The notes under the pieces: model-generated
The model's database searches: none
What the model was told of the DNA's origin: nothing
Seen by the model: only the letters and a program-made list of their open reading frames with translations
Origin: an uncultured Maribacter sp.
GTDB taxonomy: Bacteria > Bacteroidota > Bacteroidia > Flavobacteriales > Flavobacteriaceae
NCBI GenBank assembly: GCA_947498505.1
Contig: CANMKG010000006.1
Span: 124,001 to 188,000 of the forward strand
DNA length: 64,000 bases
Reading direction: 5' to 3'
In this document: positions 5,592 to 59,560 of the stretch, one piece after another
Numbering within the stretch: the stretch's first letter is position 1
How the letters are laid out: each line of letters begins with the position of its first letter
Program-made: the position numbers and the translations under genes

Positions 5592-5663
5592 AATGTTCTA
5601 TTAAGTGAGTCTAAGGTTAAACCCTAAATATCGTAAAAAACATGTAATAAATAATACTCTTTA

Positions 5664-8902: not shown

Positions 8903-8904
8903 TT

Positions 8905-9552: not shown

Positions 9553-9573
9553 TTTATACGGATACCATATATT

Positions 9574-10599: not shown

Positions 10600-10616
10600 T
10601 TTATAAACAAACAGTT

Positions 10617-11902: not shown

Positions 11903-11925
11903 TTAATTTACAATATAAAACAGGT

Positions 11926-12828
11926 ATGAAAGATTCTTTTTACAAATACATACTACAATTACAAGATACTATTACTGCCAAGTTGGAAGAAGTAGATGGT
12001 GTCGCCAAGTTTAAAGAAGATGAATGGAAACGACCTGAAGGTGGTGGTGGAAGAACCCGAGTAATTGAAAACGGAGCTGTTTTTGAAAAAGGAGGCGTGA
12101 ATATTTCTGCTGTTCATGGCAATCTACCTGAAAGTATGCAAAACTATTTTGGTGTTAAAGATGCCGACTTTTTTGCTTGCGGCTTAAGCTTAGTATTACA
12201 CCCTAAAAACCCAATGGTGCCTACAGTTCACGCAAATTGGCGCTATTTTGAAATGTATGATAAGCAAGGTAACATCGTTGATCAGTGGTTTGGTGGCGGT
12301 CAAGATTTAACACCGTATTATTTATTTGATGAAGATGCTAGTCATTTTCATGAGGTATGTAAAAAAGCTTGTGATAAACACAATCCAGATTTTTATTCTA
12401 AATATAAAGAGCGTTGTGACAATTATTTTTGGAATGCTCATAGAAATGAAGCCCGTGGAGTTGGAGGATTGTTTTTTGACTATTGTAAGGCTAGTGAAAG
12501 TATGAAAATGCAGGATTGGTACAATTTTGTTACTGAGGTAGGCGATAGCTTTTTAGACACATATATACCAATTGTTATAAAAAGAAAAGACGTTGAATAT
12601 TCCCAAAAACAAAGGGATTGGCAAGAAGTACGTCGTGGTAGGTATGTAGAGTTTAATTTAGTACATGATAAAGGCACCTTGTTTGGTTTACGTACCAATG
12701 GACGAATTGAGAGTATACTTATGAGTTTGCCACCACATGTGCAATGGAGGTATGACCATCATCCGGAAAAAGGAAGTGAGGAGGAACGCTTATTACATGT
12801 TTTAAAAGAACCTAAAGCTTGGGTGTAA
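11926..12828 (+). CDS. hemF: Coproporphyrinogen-III oxidase, oxygen-dependent
   Basis: HemF oxidatively decarboxylates coproporphyrinogen III to protoporphyrinogen IX using O2, which points to an aerobic organism. Conserved blocks are RPEGGGGRTRVIENGAVFEK, VHANWRYFE, WFGGGQDLTPYY, RGVGGLFFDY, RRGRYVEFNLVHDKGT and LMSLPPHVQWRYD. Length (300 aa) is normal. The protoporphyrinogen oxidase gene is not in the window. The stop codon overlaps the start of the small basic ORF. Confidence 0.97.
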   Translation: MKDSFYKYILQLQDTITAKLEEVDGVAKFKEDEWKRPEGGGGRTRVIENGAVFEKGGVNISAVHGNLPESMQNYFGVKDADFFACGLSLVLHPKNPMVPTVHANWRYFEMYDKQGNIVDQWFGGGQDLTPYYLFDEDASHFHEVCKKACDKHNPDFYSKYKERCDNYFWNAHRNEARGVGGLFFDYCKASESMKMQDWYNFVTEVGDSFLDTYIPIVIKRKDVEYSQKQRDWQEVRRGRYVEFNLVHDKGTLFGLRTNGRIESILMSLPPHVQWRYDHHPEKGSEEERLLHVLKEPKAWV

Positions 12829-12989
12829 TGTCTAAAAAAGGCAAAGAAAAAAATACAACGAACAAGGCAAAGCACACTAAACTTCTTAATCGAAAGAAGA
12901 ATAGGATAAAAAAGGAGAAAGAAACCCGAAAAGAAAGGTTAAAAGTTATTGTAAAAAAGCATCAAGAAAAATTAGACACTAATGAATAA
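12828..12989 (+). CDS. Small basic protein (53 aa), unknown
   Basis: An open frame starts with an ATG that overlaps the hemF stop (TAATG) and ends overlapping the start of the YchJ-like gene (its TAA is read across the next ATG region). It encodes 53 residues, starting MSKKGKEKNTTNKAK, of which over a third are Lys or Arg, with no hydrophobic segment. The tight overlap on both sides argues for a translated linker gene. Composition suggests nucleic-acid or ribosome contact, but there is no recognised domain. It could also be a chance frame between hemF and the next gene. Confidence 0.5.
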   Translation: MSKKGKEKNTTNKAKHTKLLNRKKNRIKKEKETRKERLKVIVKKHQEKLDTNE

Positions 12990-13377
12990 TCAAAACTGCC
13001 CTTGTGGTACTTCTGAGAATTACGAGGCTTGCTGTGGCGAAATTCATAAGCCTATTAAAAAAGCTATTACCGCAGAACAACTAATGCGCTCGCGTTATAG
13101 TGCATTTGTTATGGCTAAAGGAGATTATCTTATGGAAAGTCACCATTCGTCAACACGAGTAATAAGTGATAAGGAAGCAATTATAGATTGGGCAAAATCT
13201 GTAAGTTGGATTCGTTTGGAAGTTATAGAAACCACTCAAGGAAAAGAAAAAGACAATAAAGGAACAGTAACTTTTAATGCTTATTACTACGAAAACGGTA
13301 AGGTTAATGTGCTAAATGAGAAATCGGATTTTGTAAAAGAAAACGGACATTGGGTATATTTAGGGTTGGCAACATAA
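12982..13377 (+). CDS. YchJ-family protein with SEC-C motif
   Basis: The N-terminus CPCGTSENYEACCG is a SEC-C zinc-binding motif; it is followed by ITAEQLMRSRYSAFV, the diagnostic block of the YchJ/UPF0225 family, and an NTF2-like cone ending in FVKENGHWVYLG. Length (131 aa) matches the single-domain form. The biochemical role of the family is undefined. The start overlaps the preceding small ORF, so it is probably part of the hem transcript. Confidence 0.9.
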   Translation: MNNQNCPCGTSENYEACCGEIHKPIKKAITAEQLMRSRYSAFVMAKGDYLMESHHSSTRVISDKEAIIDWAKSVSWIRLEVIETTQGKEKDNKGTVTFNAYYYENGKVNVLNEKSDFVKENGHWVYLGLAT

Positions 13378-13391
13378 ACCGATTGTTTTAA

Positions 13392-14006
13392 ATGAAAAAT
13401 AGAATTTGCTATTTAATATGCTTTTGTACGCTTATATGTATTTCTTGCAAAGAACGACGAAAAAATAAAAGTGATATCGATGTAATTTTTAATTCAGATA
13501 CACTTGAGGTTGCCTATACATATTGGTGGCCAAAATCGGGTCCTTTTATTGGATTATGTGGAGACGAAATGTCATTTGTATTTTCTGGAACAATTACACA
13601 AATTGAAGCCTCAAATAATGACCCAGGACCACTTTATGTTTCTCAAAAAGCGTTTATCGCTATAGAGGCGGTATATAAAATAAAAGACTTGGGAGAAAAC
13701 AGTTATCAAAATCAAAAGTATTTTGTTTCAGACTGTTTTAACAATTTAGGATATCAAATTGGTGATAAAGTACTTGTAGTATGCTATGATTATGAAGGGG
13801 CGTTAAGTATACCAGGAGATAAATCGGCATTGAAAATTAAAAGTTTTGAAAGCCCTTTTATAACATCAATTAAAAAGTATATTGATTTTGACCAAAACCC
13901 TTTAAAAATAAAGAGAGATATTTCGCTTTGGAAACAAAAAGGGTTAGGAGAAGCTTTAAAGACTAATATTTATTGTAAAACAGAGGAGGTTTCTCCAAAG
14001 AATTAA
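13392..14006 (+). CDS. Hypothetical lipoprotein
   Basis: A Cys-rich hydrophobic N-terminus ends at CISCKERRKN, a plausible lipidation site at Cys19. The mature 185 residues show beta-rich sequence with several isolated Cys and a YWWPKSGPFIGLCGDE block after residue 40. The general look (beta strands after an exported Cys, FSGTITQIEAS) recalls OB-fold inhibitors of the TIMP/NTR type, but that is only an impression. It follows the YchJ-like gene by 14 bp and converges on the helicase gene with a 6-bp gap. Function unknown. Confidence 0.65.
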   Translation: MKNRICYLICFCTLICISCKERRKNKSDIDVIFNSDTLEVAYTYWWPKSGPFIGLCGDEMSFVFSGTITQIEASNNDPGPLYVSQKAFIAIEAVYKIKDLGENSYQNQKYFVSDCFNNLGYQIGDKVLVVCYDYEGALSIPGDKSALKIKSFESPFITSIKKYIDFDQNPLKIKRDISLWKQKGLGEALKTNIYCKTEEVSPKN

Positions 14007-14012
14007 AGAGGG

Positions 14013-16649
14013 TTATTTCCAAATAACGGCTTTTTTAGTAGGCTTTTCGTGAGCTTTAGAAATATGTAATATTCTAGCCTTTAATAAAGTACGTCTACCC
14101 TGTTTTTGACGAGTGTATATCAACATGGATTGACCAATTTTTTTGTTCCAATGTTTAAGAAATATTAAGGCTCTTTCTTTTTTATCGCCAAATAAACTAG
14201 GTACTACAAAAAAGGTTTTTATGCCAAGTACTTTTTTGTACCATTTTTTTCTAGTAATTAAATATCTTGGATTTTCAATTGGTGAAACAATTTCTTCTAA
14301 GGCTTTAATAAATATGGAGCTTTCATAATTTGATGAACCTAATAGAAAACAAGAAACTGTCCCTAATTCATTGAGTTTGACTTCTACTTTTAATTTGTTT
14401 TTCGAGGTTTTTAGGTAGTTTAGTTCAAACATGGTTTCTAAAACTGCCCATCCCATGGACTCCATACTTTTATGTATTCTACCATATGATATGTATAACT
14501 TTACTGCTCTATAAGTTTTTAACCCAAAACTAACAAAGAATACTCCAATTAGGGTATATAAGAACGTCCACCATCCTTTAGATAAAAGTGTACTCAAATT
14601 TTTCAGAAAAAATTCTGGCAAAAAAAACGTTAATCCTGTCAAGATTTCAATGAAACTGTAAGCAACCATATCACGATAATATAATTGTTTCTGTTTTTTG
14701 TGACTTAACTTACCTGAGTGATATTTTTTTAGCTCCCTTACTAACCCTGTTCCACTTGAAATTGCTTGTTTCCAATCACTACTAATCTTTTTACGATTAA
14801 TAGCTTTTTCCATTGATTTTTGATTGAGTTTTAAAACACTTTCCTTGGTAACTACTTTGTTTATATTTAGTCTGTCTAAACCACTTTCAATATAAAAAGG
14901 TGAAGTGGTAGAAACCCCCATAAAAGCGCTAAACCGTCTTTGTAAAGTTTCATAGTCTTGCCCCCCTTTTTCATCTGATGGGTCTAAACATGCTAAATGC
15001 CATATGACTGCTGTTTTGTTTTTATGACCATTCATAGAACGGATGGCTCTACCTCTCATTTGATTAGAGGAAACAAAAGAGCCAACAAAAGAAGCTAGAA
15101 TAAGCGTGTTAATTGAGGGTGCATCCCACCCTTCTCCCAACAGAGATTTTGTGCCGATTAGTATTTTTATGTAACCTTTTTGAAAAAGCTCGGTTACTAT
15201 TTCAACTATGGAGTTATTTTGACTACCTACGTCTCTGATTATAACAAAATCTTTATCCGATTCTAAAACTTGCAGACTATATTTATATTTAGGGAATATT
15301 TTATCTAAATTAGCGACAGTTTTTTTACTGATAATTACAATGCTCCCAGTAAGTGTGGCTATTGTTTCTTTATTTGAAATGGAAGCTCTAAGTCTATGAA
15401 ATATAGGTAAAACACCTAATTTGTTAATTTCATTTAGTTGGTCATCCTTAGTATTTAGATACTCTTTTCTGATGTAATCTGTTAAAACAACGGCTCTTAA
15501 ATCTTTTTTTAAATCTTTACCAGAAGACCCAATAATTTCAACAATACTATTTAACTTACTCGGACTAGTAGACAAGACTTTGTAAAACTCATCTCCTCCC
15601 ACCAAATCTATTCGTTTGGTTTTTAATACACCTAATTTTTTCAATCGCTTTGCCCATTCTACTATAAATGTATCGTGATTTGGAAATTTATCTTTGTCTA
15701 CAAAAAACAGGTGGTTTAATAAAATTTCGAGCCAATGGTTATTAAACTCGGGGAAATCTATACTATCTTCATTTTTAAAACCCAATACTTCTAATTTCTC
15801 TTTTCGTATTTTGTTACCAGTAGCGTTTAAATAAATTAATATTGAGGAAAAATATGTGGGGTTTTTATATATCTCTTCAAGGTGTAATTCCGTTTTCTGT
15901 AAAAAACGATGATTTGTAATAAATTTTTGAAAATCAACATCCGCTTGAATATCAATAGAAAGCTGAGCAACTTTTTTTCGAAATTCAACAATATAATTAA
16001 TGGTATAATCATCAGGTATTGATAAATGAACAAAATCTTGATGTGGACATAAATCTCCTTCTTTCACCAAATCAGGAACGGCTATTTCATCATCTACAGG
16101 GCCACAAAGCTCAAAATATCTCAAAATTTCTGCGCTACCGCTATCGTATGGTGGCGTTGCGGTTAAAGCTACTATAGTTAAATCTTGGTCTTGTTTTATT
16201 GCGTTTAAACATTTCCACCATTCATTTTTTAGATGATGAGCTTCATCCAGAACTAAAGTCTGAATACCTTGATGTTTAAAAAAAGCTAGAAAATCTATTT
16301 CGGAAGTTTGTTTTTTATAAAAAGCATGTATAGCTTGATAGGTACTAAATGTTATGTCGGATGGCTGAGAAATGTCAAATGAAAACTCCTTGTAGTCACA
16401 GTCTTTAGTAAAAAACTCTTGTAACCTATCTTCCCATTGATTACGAATAGTTATGGTTGGGCATAGTACCAAAGTTTTCCCACCTATTCTCCTTACAATT
16501 TCTAAACCTAATATAGTTTTTCCTGAACCCGGAGGAGCAATTAAATGTAAATGATTGTCATTAATGTAATCATCAAGATTGGTTAAAAACTTTTTTTGGT
16601 AAGCACGCCAAGGGAAAGAAAATTCTAAGGATTCGAAACTTGAAATCAA
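14013..16649 (-). CDS. SF2 DEAH-type helicase with C-terminal membrane hairpin
   Basis: An 878-residue protein whose N-terminal two thirds form a ResIII-like SF2 motor: a WRAYQ block, Walker A APPGSGKT (38-45), CPTITIRNQW, DEAH (135-138), TAT (163-165), a long lineage-specific insert (about 190-420), then GTKSLLGEGWDAPSIN and the arginine finger region QMRGRAIRS near 529-537. Residues about 659-681 and 693-713 are two hydrophobic segments flanking GWW, predicted as a membrane hairpin, followed by a soluble basic C-terminus of about 165 residues. Membrane-anchored SF2 helicases are uncommon; a defence or conflict role is possible. It is the only minus-strand gene inside the hem region and has no methylase or nuclease next to it. 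Confidence 0.85.
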   Translation of the reverse strand: MISSFESLEFSFPWRAYQKKFLTNLDDYINDNHLHLIAPPGSGKTILGLEIVRRIGGKTLVLCPTITIRNQWEDRLQEFFTKDCDYKEFSFDISQPSDITFSTYQAIHAFYKKQTSEIDFLAFFKHQGIQTLVLDEAHHLKNEWWKCLNAIKQDQDLTIVALTATPPYDSGSAEILRYFELCGPVDDEIAVPDLVKEGDLCPHQDFVHLSIPDDYTINYIVEFRKKVAQLSIDIQADVDFQKFITNHRFLQKTELHLEEIYKNPTYFSSILIYLNATGNKIRKEKLEVLGFKNEDSIDFPEFNNHWLEILLNHLFFVDKDKFPNHDTFIVEWAKRLKKLGVLKTKRIDLVGGDEFYKVLSTSPSKLNSIVEIIGSSGKDLKKDLRAVVLTDYIRKEYLNTKDDQLNEINKLGVLPIFHRLRASISNKETIATLTGSIVIISKKTVANLDKIFPKYKYSLQVLESDKDFVIIRDVGSQNNSIVEIVTELFQKGYIKILIGTKSLLGEGWDAPSINTLILASFVGSFVSSNQMRGRAIRSMNGHKNKTAVIWHLACLDPSDEKGGQDYETLQRRFSAFMGVSTTSPFYIESGLDRLNINKVVTKESVLKLNQKSMEKAINRKKISSDWKQAISSGTGLVRELKKYHSGKLSHKKQKQLYYRDMVAYSFIEILTGLTFFLPEFFLKNLSTLLSKGWWTFLYTLIGVFFVSFGLKTYRAVKLYISYGRIHKSMESMGWAVLETMFELNYLKTSKNKLKVEVKLNELGTVSCFLLGSSNYESSIFIKALEEIVSPIENPRYLITRKKWYKKVLGIKTFFVVPSLFGDKKERALIFLKHWNKKIGQSMLIYTRQKQGRRTLLKARILHISKAHEKPTKKAVIWK

Positions 16650-16771
16650 GGTACAGTATGGTTTTAACTATAAATGTAGGAATTCACGTTTTTAAATACC
16701 AATTATATTCTCCAATTTCATCATTTCTAAAGGTCAATTTCTTTACTTTGTAATTCTATAAAACCAATTTT

Positions 16772-17758
16772 ATGTATCCACTTATTCGAAATAGAAGACT
16801 GCGCAGTAATGAATCTGTTCGTAGGTTAGTTAGAGAAACTATGCTTAGTCCAAATGATTTTTTAGTCCCTCTTTTTGTGGTTGAAGGTAAAGGTATAAAG
16901 GAAGAAATTGCATCTATGCCAGGACAGTACAGAATGAGCTTGGATAATCTTGAAAAAGAGATTAAGGAGTTGTGGAAAATGGGATTATGCGCTGTTTTGT
17001 TATTTGCGAAAGTACCCGATAATTTAAAAGATAATAAAGGAACAGAAGCGTTAAATGCAGATGGACTAATGCAAAGAGCTGTAAAAACGGTAAAAAACGT
17101 TTGCCCTGAAATGTTAGTTATGACTGATGTTGCTCTGGATCCATTTTCTGTTTATGGACATGATGGTATTGTCGAAAACGGACAAATTGCAAATGATGAA
17201 ACCACTGAGGTTTTAGCAGAAATGAGTGTTTCTCATGCGCAAGCTGGAGCAGATTTTGTTGCACCTAGCGATATGATGGATGGTAGAATATTATCAATTC
17301 GTGAAGCTTTAGAAGATGAAGGTTTTATTAATACGGGTATAATGAGTTACAGTGCTAAATATGCAAGTGCATATTACGGACCCTTTAGAGATGCTTTAGA
17401 TTCCGCTCCAGTGGATGTGGCAAATATTCCAAAAGATAAAAAAACGTACCAAATGGACTATGCGAATAGATTTGAAGCTATTCGTGAAACGCAAATGGAT
17501 ATTGATGAGGGTGCAGATATTGTAATGGTAAAACCAGGGCTTTGTTATTTAGATATTGTTCGTGAAATAAAAAATGAGGTTGATGTGCCAGTAGCGGTTT
17601 ATCAGGTTTCTGGTGAATATGCTATGGTTAAGGCGGCAGCTGAAAAAGGCTGGCTAGATCATGATACAGTTATGATGGAACAATTAATTGCTTTTAAAAG
17701 GGCAGGAGCTAATATTATTGCTAGTTATTTTGCAAAAGATGCTGTTAAATTGTTATAG
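16772..17758 (+). CDS. hemB: Delta-aminolevulinic acid dehydratase (porphobilinogen synthase)
   Basis: It condenses two 5-aminolevulinates into porphobilinogen. The protein opens with YPLIRNRRLRSNESVRRLV and has the two active-site lysine regions MSYSAKYASAYYGPF and DIVMVKPGLCYLD. The stretch DVALDPFSVYGHDGIV replaces the Cys-rich zinc site of the classical enzyme by Asp, so this is the magnesium-type HemB. Length (328 aa) is standard. It has its own upstream gap; a partial -7 match (TTACTTTG) lies at 16743-16750. It is separated from the other hem genes by the helicase. Confidence 0.96.
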   Translation: MYPLIRNRRLRSNESVRRLVRETMLSPNDFLVPLFVVEGKGIKEEIASMPGQYRMSLDNLEKEIKELWKMGLCAVLLFAKVPDNLKDNKGTEALNADGLMQRAVKTVKNVCPEMLVMTDVALDPFSVYGHDGIVENGQIANDETTEVLAEMSVSHAQAGADFVAPSDMMDGRILSIREALEDEGFINTGIMSYSAKYASAYYGPFRDALDSAPVDVANIPKDKKTYQMDYANRFEAIRETQMDIDEGADIVMVKPGLCYLDIVREIKNEVDVPVAVYQVSGEYAMVKAAAEKGWLDHDTVMMEQLIAFKRAGANIIASYFAKDAVKLL

Positions 17759-48525: not shown

Positions 48526-48546
48526 TTGTATTTTGTAAAAATACAA
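48526..48546. promoter_or_regulatory. Perfect 9-bp inverted repeat before the hybrid regulator gene
   Basis: TTGTATTTT (48526-48534) and AAAATACAA (48538-48546) form a perfect dyad with spacer GTA, 25 bp before the start codon. It covers the place where a -7 box would lie. A similar GTAT...AAAATAC dyad is found before the first gene of the downstream module (52566-52585), so it is a candidate site for the regulator itself. Confidence 0.5.
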
Positions 48547-48571
48547 TTCCTTTAATAGCGTTTTTTTAGAA

Positions 48572-51500
48572 ATGACAGCACACAAACATTTTTATCTTTT
48601 ACTTTATGTGTTGCTTTTATTTTATAATAAAGCGTATAATCAAAAATTCGTAGATAATTATAAAATAACACCTTTTAAATTACCTATCGAAACTCCTGCC
48701 CATGATATATTAGAAGACTCTTACGGGTTTTTATGGATTGCAACTACTAATGGTTTATGGAGGTATGATGGTAACAATTTTAAAAGTTACATAAAAAACG
48801 AAAACGACAAAACCAGTATTACGGACAATCATATTTCTTGTCTTTATGAGGATAAGAAAAAAATATTATGGATTGGTACTTATGGAGGGGGGTTGTTAAA
48901 ATATGATAGAAATTGTGATTGTTTTGAACAATTTATTCATAGAGACAACGACCCCGAAAGCCTTAGTTTTAACGAGGTAAAAACCATTTTCGAAACTAAG
49001 GACAGTACTTTTTACATTGGTACCGATGGCGGTGGTCTAAACATAATGAATCGACAAGATGGTTCTTTTAAATCTTTTAAGTACAATATTAAAGACTCTA
49101 CTAGTATTAGTCACAATAATGTACTTTTTATAGAAGAAATTGCCGATGGTAAATTAGCAATAGGCACTTGGATTGGACTTAATGTTTTTGACTCCCAAAC
49201 ACGAAAATTTAAACGAATTTTTAAATCGCCACGTAATGGTCCTCAATACCACTATAGGTTAGCATATTATAACGGAAAATTAGTAACTGCATCTAAAGAG
49301 TTCTATACTTATTCTAAGAACAAGTTTTCTCATTTATCCATTTCAAACGGTACAGCCTATGATGTTAAAAAAATAAATGATGAAAATTGTTGGTTTTTAA
49401 ATCGTACTAATATAATAATCGCAGATTCTGATTTAAAAATAAAACAACAAATAAAACTTCAAGAAGTCTTTAATACTAAAAAAAACTACTTCCTAACAAG
49501 ATTGTTTCATAATACAAATAACAACTCTACATGGGTATTAGATAGGTCTGGAGCTTTTTTTCTCATTGAAAATAAAACTTCGTCTTTTACACCTTTTATT
49601 GAAGAAAATTTTCAGGGAGATATTTCTAAAACTGAGATCAACTTTTGGGTATCTAAAGACAATAGTATTTATATAGTAGACAAAGAAAATCCCAAAAATT
49701 ACCAACAAATAAAGAAAACTTTTTTTGGCAAACCTTATGTTGCAACGCAAGGTAATAAGACCATTTGGGTTGCGGATAATAAATATTACTACGAATTTAG
49801 TTCCAATGGCATTTTGCTACAGCAAATACAAGAAAATATTTGGCCATTCGCTGCTTTACAAACCAGAGACAACCAATTATGGATTGGTGAGGTTTTAGGA
49901 GCATCTAACTATAATATAAAAACTAAGAAAAATATAAAATTTAAATGCGATTGGAACCTTCCTAACGGCATTGGATACTTTCATAAAGTTTATGTTTTAT
50001 TTGAAGATAGTAAAAACTTTATTTGGATTGGTACAGAAGGAGACGGACTAAAAAAGTACGATTCTAAAACTAAAAGATTTACCCATTATAGACATACAAT
50101 TGGAGACAAAACTACGATTAACAATAATTTTGTACATGAAATCTTTGAAGATAGTGAGTATAATTTATGGATTGGTACCAAAGCAGGTTTATGTAGGTTA
50201 GACATAAAAACGGGCACTTTTGTACAAAGTGAAAACCCTGCTATAAAAGATAAAATTGTTCAGTCTATTGAACAGGACATGGAAGGTAATTTATGGATAG
50301 GCACCTTAAATGGATTAATAAAATACGACTACAAAAATAATAAAATAAGGGTTTTGAATGAGCAGGACGGTGTACTATCTCCTAAAATAGGAACCCATAG
50401 TTTATCTTTAAAAACCGGAGAGCTTGTTTTTAATACCAATAAGGGTTTAATGGTATTTAACCCAGAAGATGTTAAAGAAAGTAATAAAAGTCCCAAATTA
50501 TACTTATCTAAACTATGGGTAAATAATGAAATTATTAAGCCTAATAGTAAATACATTACAAAAAATATAGAAGTAGAAGAAAAAATTAACTTAGAATATA
50601 GCGACAAAAAATTTGAAATAGAATTTCAAGTCATAAACTATAATAATAACGGACGCTGTAAGTTTGCCTACAAGTTAGATGGTTATGATAAATCTTGGAG
50701 TAATGTCCAAGATAATCAAAAAGCAACCTATACCAACATACCTTCTGGAGAGTATACTTTTATGGTAAAAGGAAGTAATGAACATGGTGTGTGGAGTAAT
50801 AAAATAAAAGAAATAACTATTACTATAACTCCACCTTTTTGGGAACTTTTATGGGTGAAAATCGCAGGGTTATTATTAGCTATTTTATGTTTTGCTTTAA
50901 TATTATGGTTCGTAATAAAAAAAGAAAGAAATAGAGCCAAATTTGAAATTGAAAAAGACCGTGTATTTCAGTTTGAGGAAGTTACTAAAATGAAATTAAA
51001 ATTCTTCACAAACATATCTCACGAGTTACGAACTCCTTTAACTCTTATTACCTCACCTTTAGATAAATTTATTCAGGAAGACATAAAACCTAATAATAAG
51101 GTTTTAGAAATGATGCATAGAAACAGTTCACGGCTCTTAGAATTAGTTAATCAAATTTTAGATTATAGAAAACTAGAAGGTAATCAAAAGCTTCAAATTA
51201 CCAGTCAAAAAAATCTTTCAGTTTTTAACAACATCAACGCTTCATCACTTTATTGGGCAAAGGAAAAAAACATTAAATATAGCAACGACATTCCACCAAA
51301 TAACTATGAATTATTATTTGATGTAGATGTTATAGAAAAAATAGTAACAAATCTTGTTTCTAACGCCTTCAAATACACTCCAAAAGAAGGCCAAGTAAAG
51401 TTGTTGGTTCATTTTGAAAATATGGATGTAAGTGAAGAAAGCAATAAAATACTTCATGGTATTATGGGGATACATGTAATAGATAATGGATCTGGTATTC

Positions 51501-52504
51501 CATTAGAATATCAAGATAAAGTTTTTGAACGTTTTTATCAATTAGACGAAAATCCAGAATTTGGTTATAGTAGTGGTATTGGGTTATCGCTTACTGCCGA
51601 ATTGGTTAAGCTTCATAAAGGAAATATTGAGTTAAAAACAAGCAAAGAAAAAGGGTGTCATTTTAAAGTTGAAATTCCTATTGGGTATCAAGATTATGAA
51701 ACCTTCTTTACCAAAAACAGTAATGAACTTCCTGAAATAAATACGGCTAAAACTTTAGTCTTAATTGTTGAGGATAATGATGACATAAGAAATTATATTA
51801 ATGACGAGCTGAAAGAAACTTATCAAATTATTGAAGCGGAAAACGGAAAAATTGGATTAAAATTAGCTATTGCAACGTTACCAGATGTTATCATAAGTGA
51901 TATTATGATGCCAGAATCGGACGGTATTCAATTGGCAAATCAGTTAAAAAGTAACGAGTTAACCTCTCACATTCCATTGTTGTTTTTAACAGCAAAAACA
52001 GGGATTCAAAATAAAATTACAGGTTTAACCACCGGAGCAGAAGATTATATTCAAAAGCCATTTAATATTTCAGAAATTAAACTTAAAATCAAGAATGTTT
52101 TAGATAGTAGAAATCACTTACTCAAAAAGGTTGCTAAAGAAAATTCAGAAGAAATAAAAAAAATAAACATTGAAAACACAGATAAATATCTGGAAAAAGT
52201 AAACTTAAAATTAGAAGACCACCTGGAAAATTCAGATTTTTCTGTAGATCAACTTTGTTCAGAATTAGCTATCGGAAGATCTCAACTTTACAGAAAAATA
52301 CAGGCTCTTACAGGAAAATCTATTATTGAATATATTAATTTTCATAGGCTTTCTACAGCTATGACCTTGGTAAAAGAAGGGAACTACACCCTAAAAGAAA
52401 TTGCCTATAAAATAGGATATAACGACAACCGATATTTTAGTCGCGCGTTTAAAAAAGAGTTTGGGAATCCTCCATCTTACTACATTTCCAAGAAGAAAGA
52501 GTAA
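48572..52504 (+). CDS. Hybrid two-component system: propeller sensor, histidine kinase, receiver and AraC HTH in one chain
   Basis: A 1310-residue HTCS regulator. After a signal segment come two Reg_prop beta-propellers (about 30-640) with repeats such as DSYGFLWIATTNGLWRYDG and KNFIWIGTEGDGLKKYD, then a Y_Y_Y domain (about 660-750), a membrane helix (756-785), a HisKA domain with SHELRTPLTL (phospho-His817), an HATPase domain (about 915-1035), a receiver with phospho-Asp1110 (ISDIMMPE) and a C-terminal AraC HTH pair (about 1205-1305). All catalytic sites are intact. In Bacteroidota such proteins sense a periplasmic ligand and activate polysaccharide-use loci. Here the next genes are a redox-type exported module and no SusC/SusD. 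It is followed after 106 bp by that module in the same direction. Confidence 0.95.
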   Translation: MTAHKHFYLLLYVLLLFYNKAYNQKFVDNYKITPFKLPIETPAHDILEDSYGFLWIATTNGLWRYDGNNFKSYIKNENDKTSITDNHISCLYEDKKKILWIGTYGGGLLKYDRNCDCFEQFIHRDNDPESLSFNEVKTIFETKDSTFYIGTDGGGLNIMNRQDGSFKSFKYNIKDSTSISHNNVLFIEEIADGKLAIGTWIGLNVFDSQTRKFKRIFKSPRNGPQYHYRLAYYNGKLVTASKEFYTYSKNKFSHLSISNGTAYDVKKINDENCWFLNRTNIIIADSDLKIKQQIKLQEVFNTKKNYFLTRLFHNTNNNSTWVLDRSGAFFLIENKTSSFTPFIEENFQGDISKTEINFWVSKDNSIYIVDKENPKNYQQIKKTFFGKPYVATQGNKTIWVADNKYYYEFSSNGILLQQIQENIWPFAALQTRDNQLWIGEVLGASNYNIKTKKNIKFKCDWNLPNGIGYFHKVYVLFEDSKNFIWIGTEGDGLKKYDSKTKRFTHYRHTIGDKTTINNNFVHEIFEDSEYNLWIGTKAGLCRLDIKTGTFVQSENPAIKDKIVQSIEQDMEGNLWIGTLNGLIKYDYKNNKIRVLNEQDGVLSPKIGTHSLSLKTGELVFNTNKGLMVFNPEDVKESNKSPKLYLSKLWVNNEIIKPNSKYITKNIEVEEKINLEYSDKKFEIEFQVINYNNNGRCKFAYKLDGYDKSWSNVQDNQKATYTNIPSGEYTFMVKGSNEHGVWSNKIKEITITITPPFWELLWVKIAGLLLAILCFALILWFVIKKERNRAKFEIEKDRVFQFEEVTKMKLKFFTNISHELRTPLTLITSPLDKFIQEDIKPNNKVLEMMHRNSSRLLELVNQILDYRKLEGNQKLQITSQKNLSVFNNINASSLYWAKEKNIKYSNDIPPNNYELLFDVDVIEKIVTNLVSNAFKYTPKEGQVKLLVHFENMDVSEESNKILHGIMGIHVIDNGSGIPLEYQDKVFERFYQLDENPEFGYSSGIGLSLTAELVKLHKGNIELKTSKEKGCHFKVEIPIGYQDYETFFTKNSNELPEINTAKTLVLIVEDNDDIRNYINDELKETYQIIEAENGKIGLKLAIATLPDVIISDIMMPESDGIQLANQLKSNELTSHIPLLFLTAKTGIQNKITGLTTGAEDYIQKPFNISEIKLKIKNVLDSRNHLLKKVAKENSEEIKKINIENTDKYLEKVNLKLEDHLENSDFSVDQLCSELAIGRSQLYRKIQALTGKSIIEYINFHRLSTAMTLVKEGNYTLKEIAYKIGYNDNRYFSRAFKKEFGNPPSYYISKKKE

Positions 52505-52565
52505 TTTCTCTGCTCAATATTTACACCATTATACTCAAAAAGTCCACCACTGCTTTACAGGTTTC

Positions 52566-52585
52566 AGTATATTTTTGAAAATACT
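52566..52585. promoter_or_regulatory. Imperfect inverted repeat before the Tat propeller gene
   Basis: AGTAT (52566-52570) and AAAATACT (52578-52585) face each other; the left arm has two extra bases (AT) relative to a perfect match. It resembles the perfect dyad before the HTCS gene in its GTAT / AAAATAC arms. A weak -7-like TACTTTG follows at 52585-52591. Confidence 0.4.
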
Positions 52586-52610
52586 ACTTTGTTTAAAAAA
52601 CTAAAACCCA

Positions 52611-53669
52611 ATGGCAAACTCGCGTAGAGATTTTATTAAAAAAACAACCTTAGCTAGTACAGCCTTATCTATACCATCCTATGGGTTTACTATTCTGAAA
52701 AAACCAGAAATAAAACCACAAATTATTGGTCATGGAGACTTTAAATATAAAGTGCACAAGGAATGGGGAAATTTAAATCCAAACGTTACTCCTATAAAGA
52801 ACTGTCATGAAATGGTCTTGGATTCTAAAGGCCGATTAATTATGATTACTGACGAAATTAAAAATAATATTATTATTTATGATAAATCAGGAAAATTAAT
52901 AAAAACATGGGGACATGAGTATAAATCTGGCCATGGTTTAACCCTTTTTGATGAAGGAGGAGAAGATGTTTTATTCATTACAGACCCAAATAGCGGAACG
53001 GTTATAAAAACCACGGTAGACGGTAACATATTAATGGAACTGCCAAATCCTAAAGATATTGGTACTTACACCGAAAAGATGCGTTATAAACCAACAGAAA
53101 CTGCCATTGCTCCTAATGGAGATATTTACGTTGCAGATGGGTATGGTTCCGATTTTATATTACAATTTAATAAAGATGGAGAGTTCATAAGAAAATTTGG
53201 AGGTAAAGGGCATAAAGATGAACAACTTAACAATGCTCATGGTGTTGCTATTGATGATAGAGACCCCCAAAATATAACCTTACTATGTACTTCTAGGATT
53301 CATAATTCTTTTAAAAGATTTACGCTAGATGGTAAATATCTATCAACCATATTTCTTCCAGGAGCTTACGTTTGTAGACCTGTGATAGACGGTGAAAATA
53401 TTTATTCTGGTGTATGCTGGTCAAGAATGAAATATTTAGAACGTGTTCCAAATTCGGGGTTTGTTACCATATTGGATAAAAACAATAAAGTGGTTTCTAA
53501 CCCCGGTGGAGCTAAACCAGAATATAAAGAAGGAGAATTGCAACTTATGCTTCAAAACACTACAATTTTTAATCATTGCCATGATGTGTGTATAGATGAA
53601 GACAAAAATGTATACATATGTCAATGGAATGCAAATAAATCTTATCCCATTAAATTAGAAAGAGTATAA
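52611..53669 (+). CDS. Tat-exported NHL/6-bladed beta-propeller protein
   Basis: The N-terminus NSRRDFIKKTTLASTALS is a twin-arginine signal (RRDF), so the protein is exported folded, suggesting a cofactor or early folding. The body has propeller repeats with HGLTLFDEG, AIAPNGDIYVADGYGSDFIL and NNAHGVAIDDRD blocks, like NHL-repeat proteins and the peptidyl-amidating lyases. Paired Cys/His (NHCHDVCIDEDKNVYICQW, near the end) may bind metal. First gene of the four-gene module; the next ATG follows the stop immediately. Ligand unknown. Confidence 0.85.
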   Translation: MANSRRDFIKKTTLASTALSIPSYGFTILKKPEIKPQIIGHGDFKYKVHKEWGNLNPNVTPIKNCHEMVLDSKGRLIMITDEIKNNIIIYDKSGKLIKTWGHEYKSGHGLTLFDEGGEDVLFITDPNSGTVIKTTVDGNILMELPNPKDIGTYTEKMRYKPTETAIAPNGDIYVADGYGSDFILQFNKDGEFIRKFGGKGHKDEQLNNAHGVAIDDRDPQNITLLCTSRIHNSFKRFTLDGKYLSTIFLPGAYVCRPVIDGENIYSGVCWSRMKYLERVPNSGFVTILDKNNKVVSNPGGAKPEYKEGELQLMLQNTTIFNHCHDVCIDEDKNVYICQWNANKSYPIKLERV

Positions 53670-55976
53670 ATGAAATTTAAACTTATTCTTTTAGCTGTAA
53701 TTATACTATGTTCTTGTAAAGACATCACTTCTGATTACACTAGTATCCCCAAAAAGAAAACTCCAAAAATTGTAGACTATAATTTTGATGTAAGGCCAAT
53801 ATTATCGGACAAATGTTTTAACTGCCATGGCCCTGATGCAAATAAAAGAGCTGCAGAACTAAGATTAGATACTCCGGAAGGAGCGTATGCTGCATTAAAA
53901 GACAATGAAAATAAACATGTTATTGTAAGCGGGAATCTGGAAGAGTCTGAAGTTTTTTTAAGAATTACGACAAAAGACACTAGTCAAATTATGCCTCCTG
54001 CAGAGTCTAATTTAAAGCTTACAGGTTATGAAATATCTGTTATAAAAAAATGGATACAACAAGGCGCAAAATACCAAACTCATTGGGCTTTTGTTCCTCC
54101 TACAAAAACGAATCTACCCAAGATTAAAAAAACAGATTGGGTAAATAATGAAATAGATTATTTTATTTTAAATAAAATTGAAAATATTGGTTTAAAACCA
54201 AACCCAAGAGCAAAAAAAGAACGTCTTTTAAAACGTGTTGCTTTTGATATAACAGGTTTGCCACCTTCTGTAGAATTACAAAATCAATTTTTAAAAGATA
54301 CTTTAGACAATGCATATGAAAAAATTGTAGATAAACTTTTGGCAAGTAAACACTATGGGGAAAAAATGGCTAACCATTGGTTAGATGTTGCTCGTTATGC
54401 AGATTCTCATGGCTACCAAGATGACGGAGCAAGAACTATGTGGCCATGGCGAGATTGGGTTATTCATGCATTCAACAGAAATTATCCCTACGATAAATTT
54501 TTAACATGGCAATTGGCAGGAGATTTACTGCCAGAAAAAAATATAGAAGCGATACTTGCAACTGGTTTTAACAGAAATCATAAAATTACTCAAGAAGGTG
54601 GTGTAATTGATGAAGAATATCGGATAGAATATGTTACAGACAGAACCAATACATTTGGCAAAGCATTCTTAGGCTTAACTTTTGAATGCGCTAAATGCCA
54701 TGATCATAAGTATGATCCAATATCACAAAAAAATTATTATCAAACTTTTGCCTTTTTTGATAAAGTTCCAGAAAAAGGCTTATATGGAACTATAGGCAAT
54801 TTTGCAGACCCACCGTTTATCACTGTTACCAATAAATTAATACAAGAAAAACTTCCTTTTATAAACAAAAAAGCCCCAGAAAATGTTCGGGTAATGGTTA
54901 TGGAAGATTCAGTAGGGCTACGAGATACATATATACTAGATCGAGGAGTTTATGACGGAAAAACTGAAGTTGTTACTACGGGAACTCCAAAAGCTGTTTT
55001 AGAATTTGACACTATCAAGTTTAAGGCAAACCGTTTAGGATTATCAAAATGGCTATTGGACGATAAAAACCCTTTGACTTCCAGAGTATATGTAAATAGA
55101 ATATGGCAAAATATATTTGGAATTGGTATAGTAAATACCTCCGGAGATTTTGGAATGCAAGGTGATTTACCCTCGCATGCTAAATTGCTAGACTGGTTAG
55201 CTGTAGATTTTCAAAAAAATGGTTGGGATATTAAAAGGTTATTAAAGAAAATAGTAACCTCCGCAACCTACATGCAATCTACTGTAATAAATTCTAAAAA
55301 ATTAGAGTTGGATCCCCAAAATATATACTTGTCAAGAATGCGAAGAACTAGACTAAATGCCGAAATGATTAGGGATCATGTTCTAAGTAGTAGTGGCTTA
55401 CTAAATAAAGAAATTGGAGGCCCAAGTGTTAAACCTTACCAGCCAGATAATTTATGGGCTTCTGCTAGTTCAAGACGTGGATTATTAGCAAAATATGTAC
55501 AAGATCATGGTGATAAATTATATCGTAGAGGTATTTACACTTTTGTGAAACGGACAGTTTTACCACCTGTACAAACCACTTTTGATGCGGCTGCAAGAGA
55601 CCAATGTGAAGTGAAAAGACAAAGTACATCTACTCCGCTACAAGCATTAATAATGTTAAATGGTCCTGAAGTTTTAGAAGCGTCTAGAGTGCTCTCCGAA
55701 AATTTAAGTGCACAAAATTTAACCCTTGAACAAAAAATAGAAATAGCGTTCAAACGTATTGTATGCCGTAAAATAAAAGAAAAAGAGAAATACATTTTAA
55801 TAAAGTATTACAACGAACAGAAACAACTGTTTGTAACAAAACCAGAGAATGCTTTAGCCTTCATTAATATTGGCGAATATCCTGAACTGAAAAATGGAAA
55901 TGCTATAAATGTAGCTTCATTAATGCAAATTATACATACGCTGTATAATATGGAAGAAACCATTATGAAAAGTTAA
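53670..55976 (+). CDS. Lipoprotein with haem c motif plus DUF1549 and DUF1553
   Basis: A lipoprotein signal (IILCSC, Cys16) precedes a planctomycete-type cytochrome domain with CFNCH (Cys49-His53) and MPPAESNL (a Met ligand candidate). Then DUF1549 (about 160-370) including a second CxxCH, ECAKCHDHKYDP (Cys340-His344), and DUF1553 (about 460-730) with SRVYVNRIWQNIFG and PLQALIMLNGPEV. Such PSCyt1-DUF1549-DUF1553 proteins abound in Planctomycetes and occur in some Bacteroidota; the reaction is unknown, but covalent heme implies electron transfer. It begins directly after the propeller gene stop. Length (768 aa) is normal. Confidence 0.92.
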   Translation: MKFKLILLAVIILCSCKDITSDYTSIPKKKTPKIVDYNFDVRPILSDKCFNCHGPDANKRAAELRLDTPEGAYAALKDNENKHVIVSGNLEESEVFLRITTKDTSQIMPPAESNLKLTGYEISVIKKWIQQGAKYQTHWAFVPPTKTNLPKIKKTDWVNNEIDYFILNKIENIGLKPNPRAKKERLLKRVAFDITGLPPSVELQNQFLKDTLDNAYEKIVDKLLASKHYGEKMANHWLDVARYADSHGYQDDGARTMWPWRDWVIHAFNRNYPYDKFLTWQLAGDLLPEKNIEAILATGFNRNHKITQEGGVIDEEYRIEYVTDRTNTFGKAFLGLTFECAKCHDHKYDPISQKNYYQTFAFFDKVPEKGLYGTIGNFADPPFITVTNKLIQEKLPFINKKAPENVRVMVMEDSVGLRDTYILDRGVYDGKTEVVTTGTPKAVLEFDTIKFKANRLGLSKWLLDDKNPLTSRVYVNRIWQNIFGIGIVNTSGDFGMQGDLPSHAKLLDWLAVDFQKNGWDIKRLLKKIVTSATYMQSTVINSKKLELDPQNIYLSRMRRTRLNAEMIRDHVLSSSGLLNKEIGGPSVKPYQPDNLWASASSRRGLLAKYVQDHGDKLYRRGIYTFVKRTVLPPVQTTFDAAARDQCEVKRQSTSTPLQALIMLNGPEVLEASRVLSENLSAQNLTLEQKIEIAFKRIVCRKIKEKEKYILIKYYNEQKQLFVTKPENALAFINIGEYPELKNGNAINVASLMQIIHTLYNMEETIMKS

Positions 55977-55987
55977 AAAACCACCCT

Positions 55988-57442
55988 ATGGATAAAGAAT
56001 TTTTTGAACACCGTTTAAATGTCAATAGAAGACATTTTTTAGGTAAAATGGCTATGGGTGTTGGCGGCGCTGCTCTAGGGTCATTATTAGTACCTAATTT
56101 ATTTAAAGGATCAAATAATAATAACGCGGAGTTACCTCTTGGTGTAAAACATTTTGCAAGTAAAGCTAAGCGTATAATTATGCTTACACAAAATGGCGCT
56201 CCTTCTCAATTAGAAAGTTTTGACTATAAACCAAAACTTAGAGATATGTTTGGCCAAGATTTACCGGAATCTATTAGACAAGGGCAACGCTTAACCGGTA
56301 TGACCGCTAACCAAAAAAGCTTTCCGTTAGTAGGTTCTAAATTTGATTTTAAACAGTATGGAAAATCTGGAACTTGGGTAAGCGAATTATTTCCTAACAT
56401 CGCAAAAATTACAGATGATATTTGCGTTATAAAAAGTATGCATACCGATGCAATTAACCACGACCCTGCGTTGACTTTTTTTCAAACAGGTTCCCAACAA
56501 GGTAATAGGCCAAGTATGGGGTCATGGCTTAGTTATGGTTTAGGTAGCGAAAATAAAAACCTTCCTGCTTTTTGTGTTTTGTTATCTAAAGGTTCTGGAA
56601 ATGGACAAGGAGTTTACTCTAAATTATGGTCTAATGGATTTTTGGATAGTAACCACCAAGGCGTACAATTAAGTGCTAGTGAAGATCCTATTTTGTATTT
56701 AAACAATCCGGACGGGATGGATAAAGTGCAGCGAAAAAAAATGTTAGACCATTTGGCAGAATTAAATAATCTTGGACATGCTGAATTTGGAGATCCAGAA
56801 ATACATTCTAAAATAAAGCAATATGAAATGGCTTTTAGAATGCAAACTGCTGTTCCAGAAATTACAGATTTATCTAAAGAACCAGCACATATTACGGAAA
56901 TGTACGGAGCAGATTCTATGATACCAGGCACCTATGCATCTAATTGTTTGTTAGCTAGAAAATTATCGGAATCTGGCGTTCGTTTTGTACAATTATACCA
57001 TCAAGGTTGGGATCAACATGGACATTTAGAAAGAGATATGCCTAAACAAGCTATGGATGTAGATAAAGCATCTGCGGCTTTAATAACAGATTTAAAACAA
57101 AGAGGGTTATTAGATGAAACATTAGTTATATGGGGTGGCGAGTTTGGACGCACTAATTATTGTCAAGGAAAACTTACTAAAGATAATTATGGTAGAGACC
57201 ACCACCCAAGAGCCTTTAGTATTTTTATGGCTGGTGGAGGCGTTAAAGCGGGAACATCTTATGGTAAGACCGATGAATTAGGATACAATATAATAGAAAA
57301 CCCGGTACATATTCACGATTTACACGCTACTATTTTACATTTAATGGGCTTAGACCATGAAAAATTAACCTATAAACATTTAGGAAGACGATTTAGATTA
57401 ACCGATGTGCATGGGCATGTAATGAAGGATATTTTAGCATAA
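55988..57442 (+). CDS. Tat-exported DUF1501 protein (alkaline phosphatase/sulfatase superfamily-like)
   Basis: A twin-arginine-like segment NVNRRHFLGKMAMGVGGAALGS at residues 11-32 marks Tat export. The body shows DUF1501 blocks: MLTQNGAPSQLESFDYKP, HDPALTFFQTGSQQGNRPSMGSW-type sequence near residue 160, QLYHQGWDQHGHLERDMP and WGGEFGRTNYCQGKL followed by GRDHHPRAFSIFMAGGG. The His/Asp cluster (DHHP, HGH) would hold metal. DUF1501 is almost always adjacent to DUF1553 proteins, as here (11 bp after it). Substrate unknown. Confidence 0.92.
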   Translation: MDKEFFEHRLNVNRRHFLGKMAMGVGGAALGSLLVPNLFKGSNNNNAELPLGVKHFASKAKRIIMLTQNGAPSQLESFDYKPKLRDMFGQDLPESIRQGQRLTGMTANQKSFPLVGSKFDFKQYGKSGTWVSELFPNIAKITDDICVIKSMHTDAINHDPALTFFQTGSQQGNRPSMGSWLSYGLGSENKNLPAFCVLLSKGSGNGQGVYSKLWSNGFLDSNHQGVQLSASEDPILYLNNPDGMDKVQRKKMLDHLAELNNLGHAEFGDPEIHSKIKQYEMAFRMQTAVPEITDLSKEPAHITEMYGADSMIPGTYASNCLLARKLSESGVRFVQLYHQGWDQHGHLERDMPKQAMDVDKASAALITDLKQRGLLDETLVIWGGEFGRTNYCQGKLTKDNYGRDHHPRAFSIFMAGGGVKAGTSYGKTDELGYNIIENPVHIHDLHATILHLMGLDHEKLTYKHLGRRFRLTDVHGHVMKDILA

Positions 57443-57445
57443 AGC

Positions 57446-59560
57446 ATGAAAAAACTAGAATCTATAACCTTACAAATTTTATTTTTTTTCTATTGTTTTT
57501 TACTAGTACTATTAATTTTTGAAAAAAATATTACTATACCTTTTTGGCTAAAACCAATAGGTAGAATGCATCCGCTTATTTTGCATTTTCCTATAACTCT
57601 TATAGTGCTATTAGTTATTTTAAATTTTTTTAAAACAAAAATAGATATAGAGACCTATAAGCAAATAAATAGGTTTTTAGTGTTATTTACTGCATTCACA
57701 ACAATTATAGCTACCATTATGGGACTATTTTTATCCTTAGAAAGCAGTACAACAAACCTAATGAACATACATAAATGGTTAGGTATTGGGCTTTGCTGTC
57801 TAATATACTTTTTGGTATTTATTAAAAAAGAGTATATATATAAAACTGTACTTTATATTGCGTTTATAGGAGTGCTTTTTACCGGACATTATGGTGCAGG
57901 CTTAACTCATGGTGCTAATTTTATCACAGAACCTCTAACAAAAGCAGAACATAAAGAAATCACTCTAGATACTCCGATTTACCTTGGGTTTATTAAACCT
58001 ATTATAGATACTAAATGTGTGGGTTGTCATAATCCGGAAAAGAAAAAAGGAGATTTAGATATGTCTTCTTTTGAAAAAATAAAGTTGGGAGGCAAAAACG
58101 GAGAAATTTGGGTTAGTGAAAACCCTAATAAAAGTACTTTGCTTAAAAGAGCTCATTTACCTTTAGAACATAAAGAGCATATGCCTCCTGAAGGCAAAAA
58201 ACAACTTACTAAAGAAGAAATTAACTTACTTACGGCTTGGATTAAACAAGGTGCTAATGAAAAATTAACCATAAATCAATTACCAAAAAAAGATTCTTTA
58301 AAAGCACTATTAACAAATAAACTAAAAGCTTTACAAAAGAAAAGAGAGTTTACCTATTCCTTTGATTTTGCTAGCAAAAAAACTATTCTAGCTTTAGACA
58401 ATCCATATAGAACAGTACTTCAAAAATCGCCATTATCACCCGCAATAGAAGTTGTTATTTACGGTAGAGAAACGTATAAACCTAAATTTTTAACAGATTT
58501 AGAAAAAATTAAAAACCAGCTAGTTTCTTTAAACCTATCTTACTTACCTATAAACAAAAGCAGCATTAATTTTATTAGTACTTTAAAAAATTTAGAAGAA
58601 TTAATTTTAAATTTTACAGATATTAATTCTAATGACCTACAAGCATTAAAATCTTGTAAAAATTTAAAAGTGTTATCATTATCCGGTACTAAAGTAAATT
58701 ATACTATAACTAATTTATTAGAACAATTACCTACTCTGGAAAAAGTATATCTATGGAATGTTTCTATTTCTCAGGATGAAATTATTGCTTTAATATCTAA
58801 GAATCCGAATGTAGTTTTTGAAACAGGTTTTAAAGGTTCTGAAGAAAAATTACAGTTGACTCCTCCAATTTTAATAAGCAAAAAAACAGTTATTACTAAA
58901 GATGATTTTGTAGAATTAGGACACAAAATGCCTGGAGTTGAAATTAGGTATACCATTAATGATTCTGTACCTGATGAAAATTCTAGCCTATACAAAACAC
59001 CAATAAAAATTGATTTAAAAAATAAAAAACCAATTAAAACAATTGCTTATAAAAACAATTGGTTACCAAGTACTGTGCAAAACTATTCTTTTGTTGATAA
59101 AGGATATACTCCTCACACTTTTAATCTTGTACACCAAGGGTTAAATAGCGAGTTTATAGGTGAAGCACAAAATATACTTATAGATACTAATAAAGGAAAT
59201 AGTGGTAATGCAAAATCTTCCCCAATTTGGTCTACTTTTAATAAAGAAAATCCGTTAAATGCAGTTGCCTATTTTAAAGAAGACGCAAAAAAAATCGAAA
59301 AAATAATTTTTAGTTATGGTATACATAAACAACAAAAAAAAGAGTCCTTGCATTTTTTAGAAATTTGGGGCAGTCAAGGCAAAGATAAATGGCATTTAAT
59401 TAAACGTATTACAAAACCATACAATATGGTAAACAAAAAGTTACAAAGAGCTAAAACTATAGAGGTAAACGTTTCAAATTCAGGTTATCCCTATTTTAAA
59501 ATTATAGCAATACCTCATGAGAAGGAAAAACTATACGTGGATCAAATATTTTTTTATTAA
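57446..59560 (+). CDS. Membrane DUF2231-like protein fused to a haem c domain, LRR-like region and C-terminal beta-sandwich
   Basis: Residues 1 to about 155 hold four or five membrane helices with conserved-looking histidines (MHPLILHFPITL, IHKWLGIG, FTGHYGAGLTHGANF), resembling DUF2231 proteins and possibly binding heme b. A planctomycete-type cytochrome domain follows with CVGCH (Cys191-His195) and MPPEGKKQLT, then leucine-rich-like repeats (about 360-450: LEELILNFTDIN, LKVLSLSGTKVN), then a chitobiase/hexosaminidase C-terminal-type beta domain (about 475-550) and a discoidin-like end. It starts 3 bp after the DUF1501 stop. The architecture suggests an inner-membrane electron exit for the module. 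Confidence 0.88.
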   Translation: MKKLESITLQILFFFYCFLLVLLIFEKNITIPFWLKPIGRMHPLILHFPITLIVLLVILNFFKTKIDIETYKQINRFLVLFTAFTTIIATIMGLFLSLESSTTNLMNIHKWLGIGLCCLIYFLVFIKKEYIYKTVLYIAFIGVLFTGHYGAGLTHGANFITEPLTKAEHKEITLDTPIYLGFIKPIIDTKCVGCHNPEKKKGDLDMSSFEKIKLGGKNGEIWVSENPNKSTLLKRAHLPLEHKEHMPPEGKKQLTKEEINLLTAWIKQGANEKLTINQLPKKDSLKALLTNKLKALQKKREFTYSFDFASKKTILALDNPYRTVLQKSPLSPAIEVVIYGRETYKPKFLTDLEKIKNQLVSLNLSYLPINKSSINFISTLKNLEELILNFTDINSNDLQALKSCKNLKVLSLSGTKVNYTITNLLEQLPTLEKVYLWNVSISQDEIIALISKNPNVVFETGFKGSEEKLQLTPPILISKKTVITKDDFVELGHKMPGVEIRYTINDSVPDENSSLYKTPIKIDLKNKKPIKTIAYKNNWLPSTVQNYSFVDKGYTPHTFNLVHQGLNSEFIGEAQNILIDTNKGNSGNAKSSPIWSTFNKENPLNAVAYFKEDAKKIEKIIFSYGIHKQQKKESLHFLEIWGSQGKDKWHLIKRITKPYNMVNKKLQRAKTIEVNVSNSGYPYFKIIAIPHEKEKLYVDQIFFY

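Follow-up and report, generated by a model that had tools for sequence, protein, structure and literature searches.

A predicted HTCS-controlled operon of exported haem proteins in a Maribacter genome, possibly a periplasmic module for oxidising glycan-derived molecules

The stretch of DNA analysed here (the window) comprises 64,000 nucleotides of an uncultured Maribacter sp. (contig CANMKG010000006.1, positions 124,001 to 188,000, assembly GCA_947498505.1), part of a 4.08-Mb flavobacterial genome. It contains a gene for a hybrid two-component system (HTCS) regulator, followed on the same strand by four genes for an NHL propeller, a PSCyt1-DUF1549-DUF1553 lipoprotein, a DUF1501 protein and a membrane cytochrome (Table 1), a locus designated L048 in our locus set. 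The five genes, the 1310-aa length of the regulator and the successive gaps of 106, 0, 11 and 3 bp given in a preliminary description of this DNA were all reproduced from the coordinates of the open reading frames (ORFs); the start that it gives for the region, 48526, lies 46 bases 5′ of the HTCS start codon.

Table 1. Features of the HTCS-haem protein locus, in window coordinates (PWM, position weight matrix; TM, transmembrane).
Feature	Position	Strand	Description	Basis
HTCS, 1310 aa	48572..52504	+	Reg_prop periplasmic sensor, Y_Y_Y, HisKA, HATPase, receiver, AraC-type HTH	Pfam, ORF list
Predicted HTCS operator	52512..52548	+	two 16-bp direct repeats, 5-bp spacer (period 21), core TACACC-N15-TCCACC	leave-one-out PWM
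Predicted -7-like promoter element	52570..52577	+	TATTTTTG, fits TAnnTTTG	
Exported NHL beta-propeller, PAL-like, 352 aa	52611..53669	+	invariant H66, H108, H210, H324, Y178, R229	
Lipoprotein PSCyt1-DUF1549-DUF1553, 768 aa	53670..55976	+	two haem-c motifs: C49-H53, C340-H344	
Tat-type DUF1501 protein, 484 aa	55988..57442	+	alkaline-phosphatase-superfamily fold, altered metal-site residues	
Membrane cytochrome, 704 aa	57446..59560	+	five predicted TM segments with five invariant His (DUF2231-like), PSCyt1 haem-c domain, LRR-like and Fn3_assoc/CHB_HEX_C regions	

The usual targets of HTCS proteins are polysaccharide loci with SusC/SusD genes. In the protein studied here, the Reg_prop, Y_Y_Y, HisKA, HATPase_c, Response_reg and HTH_18 domains all exceeded their Pfam cut-offs, giving the full HTCS architecture in one chain. 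Orthologues were sought in 299 genomes of the family, with two candidates scored per genome and a strict threshold of E ≤ 1e-200, and were found in eight of them, which together with G007 made nine genomes. Co-occurrence of regulator and module in relatives had been set beforehand as the test on which their pairing should stand or fall, and in all nine genomes the orthologue immediately precedes the module, with the propeller gene present in eight of the nine loci. The outer flanks of these loci vary, with sdh genes in the window and G209 and sulfatases in G008, G159 and G265. In a tree of 95 lipoprotein homologues built by a quick method, the nine HTCS-linked modules formed one group (Shimodaira–Hasegawa-like approximate likelihood ratio test, SH-aLRT, 99), and its sister, Splendidivirga, contained no HTCS in the locus read. 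The simplest reading of this pattern would be that the regulator joined the module once and then stayed.

The gap between the HTCS gene and the next gene contains TRCACC, 15 bases and TCYAC in 9/9 loci. When scored with a leave-one-out PWM, built each time from the other eight loci, the gap site ranked first in every locus at 30.5–41.5 bits, and runner-up sites reached at most 8.9 bits except in G159 (21.4 bits); in the window the site scored 32.6 bits against 8.9 for the next best. The second G159 site (L144:11292-11324) overlaps the main site one period upstream and is apparently a third repeat. The half-sites recur with a period of 21 bp (mean 9.44 of 16 positions identical, against no more than 6.22 at any other shift between 14 and 29), and an element of the TAnnTTTG type, the Bacteroidota -7 consensus, starts 20–21 bp past the repeat in all nine loci; in G265 it falls within the first bases of the following called ORF. 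Comparison of these sequences establishes a conserved direct repeat, spanning two helical turns and lying just 5′ of a -7-like element, as the predicted HTCS operator. It is like the Bacteroides HTCS motifs described by Ravcheev et al. (PMC3878776), which are direct repeats averaging 21 bp and include two 16-bp sites with a 5-bp spacer.

The 94 HTCS-free modules showed no such operator within up to 2 kb upstream, the best score being 7.9 bits. In six whole genomes, sites with zero or one mismatch occurred only at the operon, which so far speaks against a different regulon for the HTCS, the other refuting condition set beforehand; 44 further matches with two or three mismatches were found, against 29 for a reversed control pattern, so that weak additional operator sites are possible, though not indicated. 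Since both the linkage and the predicted operator are conserved in 9/9 loci, the HTCS very probably switches on the adjacent operon, and the control of the four genes proposed in the preliminary description is borne out to that extent.

To describe the module more widely, loci were assembled from a search of 60 relatives (own genome included), 20 of which gave a lipoprotein match at E ≤ 0.001, and from the best 80 of 577 confirmed matches in named genomes. The 104 loci were read by script, and 103 of them contain the lipoprotein gene, by selection; L142, which is the contig of L087, was counted once in the module counts and the tree, and L053, whose lipoprotein gene reads as N, was excluded from the 103 while its DUF1501 and propeller genes were kept in the alignments. 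Of the 103 loci, 97 carry DUF1501 next to the lipoprotein gene, 87 a membrane cytochrome gene close by, 33 the propeller and 9 the HTCS. Some of the misses arise from contig ends and tandem copies, and the association of these genes is more than chance. The window has the arrangement that defines a PSCyt2-PSD1/DUF1501 module, a PSCyt1-DUF1549-DUF1553 gene beside DUF1501, and the idea that this locus alone has such a module was ruled out by two further copies in the host genome and about 100 other loci. In a phylum sample of 61 genomes, DUF1553 was found in one, the host's own, and DUF1800 in 25.

The lipoprotein matches PSCyt1 (1.3e-14), PSCyt2/DUF1549 (2.6e-86) and PSD1/DUF1553 (2.6e-95) in Pfam, and its CxxCH sites at 49–53 and 340–344 are invariant in 81/81 aligned homologues, H304 and invariant charged residues surrounding the second of them. 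The sequence marks of a c-type cytochrome, conserved CxxCH with a candidate axial Met, are present in the module. The main body of DUF1549/DUF1553 gave no confident fold match in the PDB; neither the lipoprotein nor DUF1501 matched PDB sequence profiles below E 0.03, and none of the 27 Foldseek matches listed for the lipoprotein model reached E ≤ 0.001, which does not in itself demonstrate a new fold. The membrane cytochrome matches PSCyt1 (5.3e-11), Fn3_assoc (1.9e-12) and CHB_HEX_C_1 (9.2e-9), with a DUF2231 match (2.4e-4, 21.6 bits) under the cut-off of 26.4, and five membrane His are invariant among its homologues; it may carry haem b besides haem c. In L078, Pfam identified a natural fusion in which DUF2231-PSCyt1 is joined to DUF1549-DUF1553. 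Because the haem-c motifs and the five membrane His are invariant and one such fusion exists, an electron transfer function of the module is supported. The fusion in L078, the Pfam-tested one of four fusion-like proteins (L067, L072, L078 and L085), belongs to a divergent pair directly upstream of an ordinary module, and in each of these four loci the pair consists of the fusion-like protein and a DUF1501 about 28–29% identical to that of the window.

The DUF1501 protein (Pfam, 1.7e-155) passes the NCBIfam twin-arginine translocation (TAT) model at 19.4 against 16.7, and its predicted structure (pLDDT 74.7, pTM 0.80) indicates that it has the alkaline-phosphatase-superfamily (sulfatase/NPP) fold. 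When residues are matched by motif to the NPP/sulfatase ligand set, the presumed metal site looks altered: N, S or A occupies position 69 in 72/76 sequences and D in 4/76, and EF stands in place of the usual DH pair in 76/76 (F at 386). D342, H344 and E385 are present in 76/76 and D404-H405-H406 in 75/76.

The propeller matches NHL (5.6e-8) and DUF5128 (1.7e-7), begins with MANSRRDFIKK and scores 14.6 in the TAT model, just short of 16.7. Its four invariant His and Y178 and R229 are conserved in 33/33 family members. In a PDB search it matched PAL at 1.7e-12 with the longest best stretch, 150 profile positions, and to our knowledge PAL alone among its PDB matches has the propeller as catalytic domain. 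A gluconolactonase-like propeller was also considered, and 20 of the 33 propellers match SGL at E ≤ 0.01; the PDB search favours PAL over the lactonase Drp35 (0.66). From HMMER alignment coordinates, and assuming no gap near the ends, H108, Y178, R229 and H324 fall at positions 94, 163, 215 and 295 of the 3FVZ chain, and H210 was placed against the third PAL zinc His by position only. The counterparts of Y178 and R229 are 52 residues apart, the spacing of Tyr651 and Arg703, given as the PAL catalytic pair in one report (PMC10303134). The propeller looks PAL-like in that its Tyr and Arg coincide with the lyase's catalytic pair, and this is offered as a lead; it is unlike PAL in being bacterial and exported and in having haem proteins as partners where PAL has a copper monooxygenase, and its lyase activity is putative. 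Since an AP_endonuc_2-type TIM barrel (xylose-isomerase-like) takes the propeller's place in three sister modules, L049, L050 and L051 (over the Pfam cut-off in L051 only), this position may be a general lyase slot.

Several sister modules lie in glycan loci. In the host genome, module C2 adjoins GH29 and GH97 genes and is separated by about 10 kb from genes for SusC, SusD and GH3, which are on the opposite strand. Module C1 is surrounded by sulfatases; its own strand carries an HTCS farther upstream, and genes for altronate dehydratase and alpha-L-fucosidase are found on the other strand. Modules of relatives are accompanied by GH20, GH92, GH18, GH123 and an Asparaginase_2 gene in L037 and L040, and by KduI and FAH genes in L039. 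None of the genome's 18 SusD matches (17 genes) lies on the window contig, and none of the glycan enzyme types sought was found at the locus, which in this differs from a polysaccharide utilisation locus (PUL) with its SusC/SusD pair and carbohydrate-active enzymes (CAZymes); the absence of SusC/SusD stressed in the preliminary description thus stands for the window contig, where no SusD match was found, and not genome-wide, given C2. A DUF7133 and cytochrome c protein, a candidate haem oxidoreductase, was also seen near the SusC/SusD genes and the second haem module (L219:2562-4862).

On balance, we consider it probable, by a modest degree, that the locus encodes a dedicated, HTCS-switched, single-operon oxidative catabolic module of the periplasm, whose exported haem proteins may oxidise and split a glycan-derived molecule. 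A periplasmic ligand would bind the Reg_prop sensor, and the AraC domain would then bind the repeat and turn the operon on. The dihaem DUF1549/DUF1553 protein, with its usual partner DUF1501, would oxidise the substrate, and electrons could leave its haem c for the DUF2231-PSCyt1 membrane protein, which has haem c and a probable haem b, and from there reach the quinone pool. The PAL-like propeller might break the oxidised intermediate, either by collapse of a hemiaminal or hemiacetal or by elimination beside the new carbonyl. As substrate, an amino sugar or an oligomer of sulfated or deoxy sugars is probable, varying by subfamily. Of the oxidation or dehydrogenation system proposed in the preliminary description, haem-c motifs in two proteins are upheld and haem b in one is possible, but the PAL-like propeller and the alkaline-phosphatase-superfamily DUF1501 are neither of them an obvious dehydrogenase; its glycan link holds for some sister modules, and the window locus itself is without listed glycan enzymes.

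Several observations weigh against this interpretation. No reaction, substrate or cofactor of DUF1501, DUF1549 or DUF1553 was met in the literature consulted or in the present analysis, and the direction of electron flow is inferred. The enrichment of glycan enzymes, with at least one match at 10/25 module loci and 23/80 named loci against 0/20 arbitrary regions of the same genomes, is biased by queries taken from the same loci (GH20 matches may include small Fn3_assoc proteins, L142 is among the 25, and Gfo/Idh matches, found in 2/20 controls, were left out). Within the 20 kb examined, no listed CAZyme or sulfatase was found at the window locus, and only three of the nine HTCS loci (L035, L144, L145), all of one subclade, have neighbours of this kind. 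The propeller is absent from the HTCS locus L144 and was seen in 33/103 loci, including 25/94 of the HTCS-free ones; eleven NHL-domain sequences (TRIM2, TRIM3, TRIM71, Thin and Brat) outscore PAL as its matches; and positions 94 and 295 of 3FVZ are presumably the PAL zinc ligands His585 and His786, in a mapping through alignment coordinates. Furthermore, DUF1501 also pairs with DUF1800, which is haem-free and weakly similar to DUF1553, so that redox chemistry may be an added feature instead of the core. In hhalign comparisons, DUF1549-DUF1553 and DUF1800 scored 35.4 (P 0.0026, probability 11.6%) against 16.9–25.9 for four decoys, rising from 28.4 through 31.1 with deeper profiles, the probability staying at or below 11.6% throughout, which does not establish homology between them.

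If the core chemistry were instead hydrolysis, DUF1501 would act on ester-bearing glycans and the haem proteins would be an attached sensor or electron sink. We think this unlikely: it would fit the fold of DUF1501, but the metal residues of that fold look altered at position 69 and at the EF pair, the haem motifs do not vary, and one relative has the membrane haem module joined to DUF1549/DUF1553 in a single protein. Electrons might also flow in reverse, from quinol through haem b and haem c to a lipoprotein haem that activates oxygen and hydroxylates a C–H beside N or O, the propeller splitting the product as in animal PHM-PAL. The PAL-like Tyr/Arg and His pattern of the propeller, the five invariant membrane His, which would be consistent with a haem b facing quinol, and H304 with the invariant charged residues around the second lipoprotein haem motif would all suit such a route; neither an oxygenase fold nor a precedent was found, most modules were read without a propeller, and nothing indicates an open haem site, which makes it quite improbable.

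That the HTCS stands beside the cluster by chance and controls a distant polysaccharide locus is highly improbable. Such a role would be usual for an HTCS, SusD genes are present on other contigs, and the 44 weaker operator-like matches in six genomes could be its targets, but these compare with 29 for the reversed control, no other site has fewer than two mismatches, and linkage in nine of nine genomes, a single clade and nine of nine predicted operators in the gap led us to reject a chance neighbour. A more specific form of the oxidative module, rather improbable in our estimate, would be a copper-free bacterial counterpart of animal PHM-PAL, in which a quinone-linked haem-c enzyme (DUF1549/DUF1553 with DUF1501) oxidises the carbon next to N or O in a glycan-derived compound, a PAL-like zinc lyase splits the product, and a glycan-sensing HTCS induces the system.

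Planctomycetes and Verrucomicrobia are known to encode PSCyt/PSD and DUF1501 proteins. Literature searches on DUF1501, DUF1549/DUF1553, PSCyt1, DUF1800 and DUF2231, consulted mostly as search listings, met no assigned reaction, nor a dedicated HTCS with operator for a module of this type; DUF1501 in combination with DUF1553 yielded no paper. He et al. 2017 (PMC5615132) report PSCyt/PSD domains, conserved neighbours and frequent nearby sulfatases in Verrucomicrobia, of then unknown function. The haem modules analysed here share with those the domains, a conserved neighbour gene, sulfatase proximity and a suspected carbohydrate role, and the one in the window differs in its Flavobacteriaceae host, dedicated HTCS with predicted operator, PAL-like propeller and separate DUF2231-PSCyt1-LRR-Fn3_assoc membrane subunit. 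The earlier view of an undescribed system is accordingly narrowed, since these domains, neighbours and sulfatases had been reported. With HTCS-controlled Bacteroidota PULs the locus has in common the HTCS architecture and the predicted operator of 21-bp-period direct repeats, and is unlike them in that the target is a redox operon, the contig carries no SusD match and no listed CAZyme was seen in the locus.

DUF1800-DUF1501 gene pairs have been linked to a sugar polymer (chitin synthase) operon in another study (PMC5122149), and resemble the present module in the DUF1501 partner, the weak co-linear DUF1800/DUF1553 similarity and the sugar-polymer link; they differ in other partner genes and in that no haem domain was found in the DUF1800 protein tested. 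A separate DUF1800-DUF1501 pair is present in the host genome (G000 C2:122001-138000; L167:5922-9171), and in Dyadobacter a similar pair precedes the haem module by a few kb (L129:4589-7768). Cytochrome-c-linked sugar 3-dehydrogenase/lyase (3-keto) pathways oxidise sugars in the periplasm to cytochrome c, followed by a TIM-barrel or other lyase. The proposed logic is alike, but the window operon has no GMC or Gfo/Idh/MocA dehydrogenase, and the catalyst would be DUF1549/DUF1553.

Around the operon, translations read by eye suggest sdh-like genes and an aminotransferase-like gene on the 5′ side, and a tetrapyrrole/haem synthesis cluster (window 6736-17758) about 30 kb away; they also suggest a ThuA-like lipoprotein gene and, next to it in the same orientation, a gene for an AraC-type regulator (4815-6566). 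On the 3′ side lie a thioredoxin-like gene on the opposite strand and a LytTR sensor/regulator pair.

In Bacteroidota, PSCyt/PSD and DUF1501 proteins have a patchy distribution, and they have been known as families without an assigned reaction. A module with its own ligand-sensing regulator and predicted operator offers a practical handle on the substrate class through induction by glycans, and the PAL-like propeller and the natural fusion provide concrete enzymatic hypotheses. If the PHM-PAL-like reading were true, the module would represent oxidative cleavage of glycan bonds, accessory to glycoside hydrolases and sulfatases.

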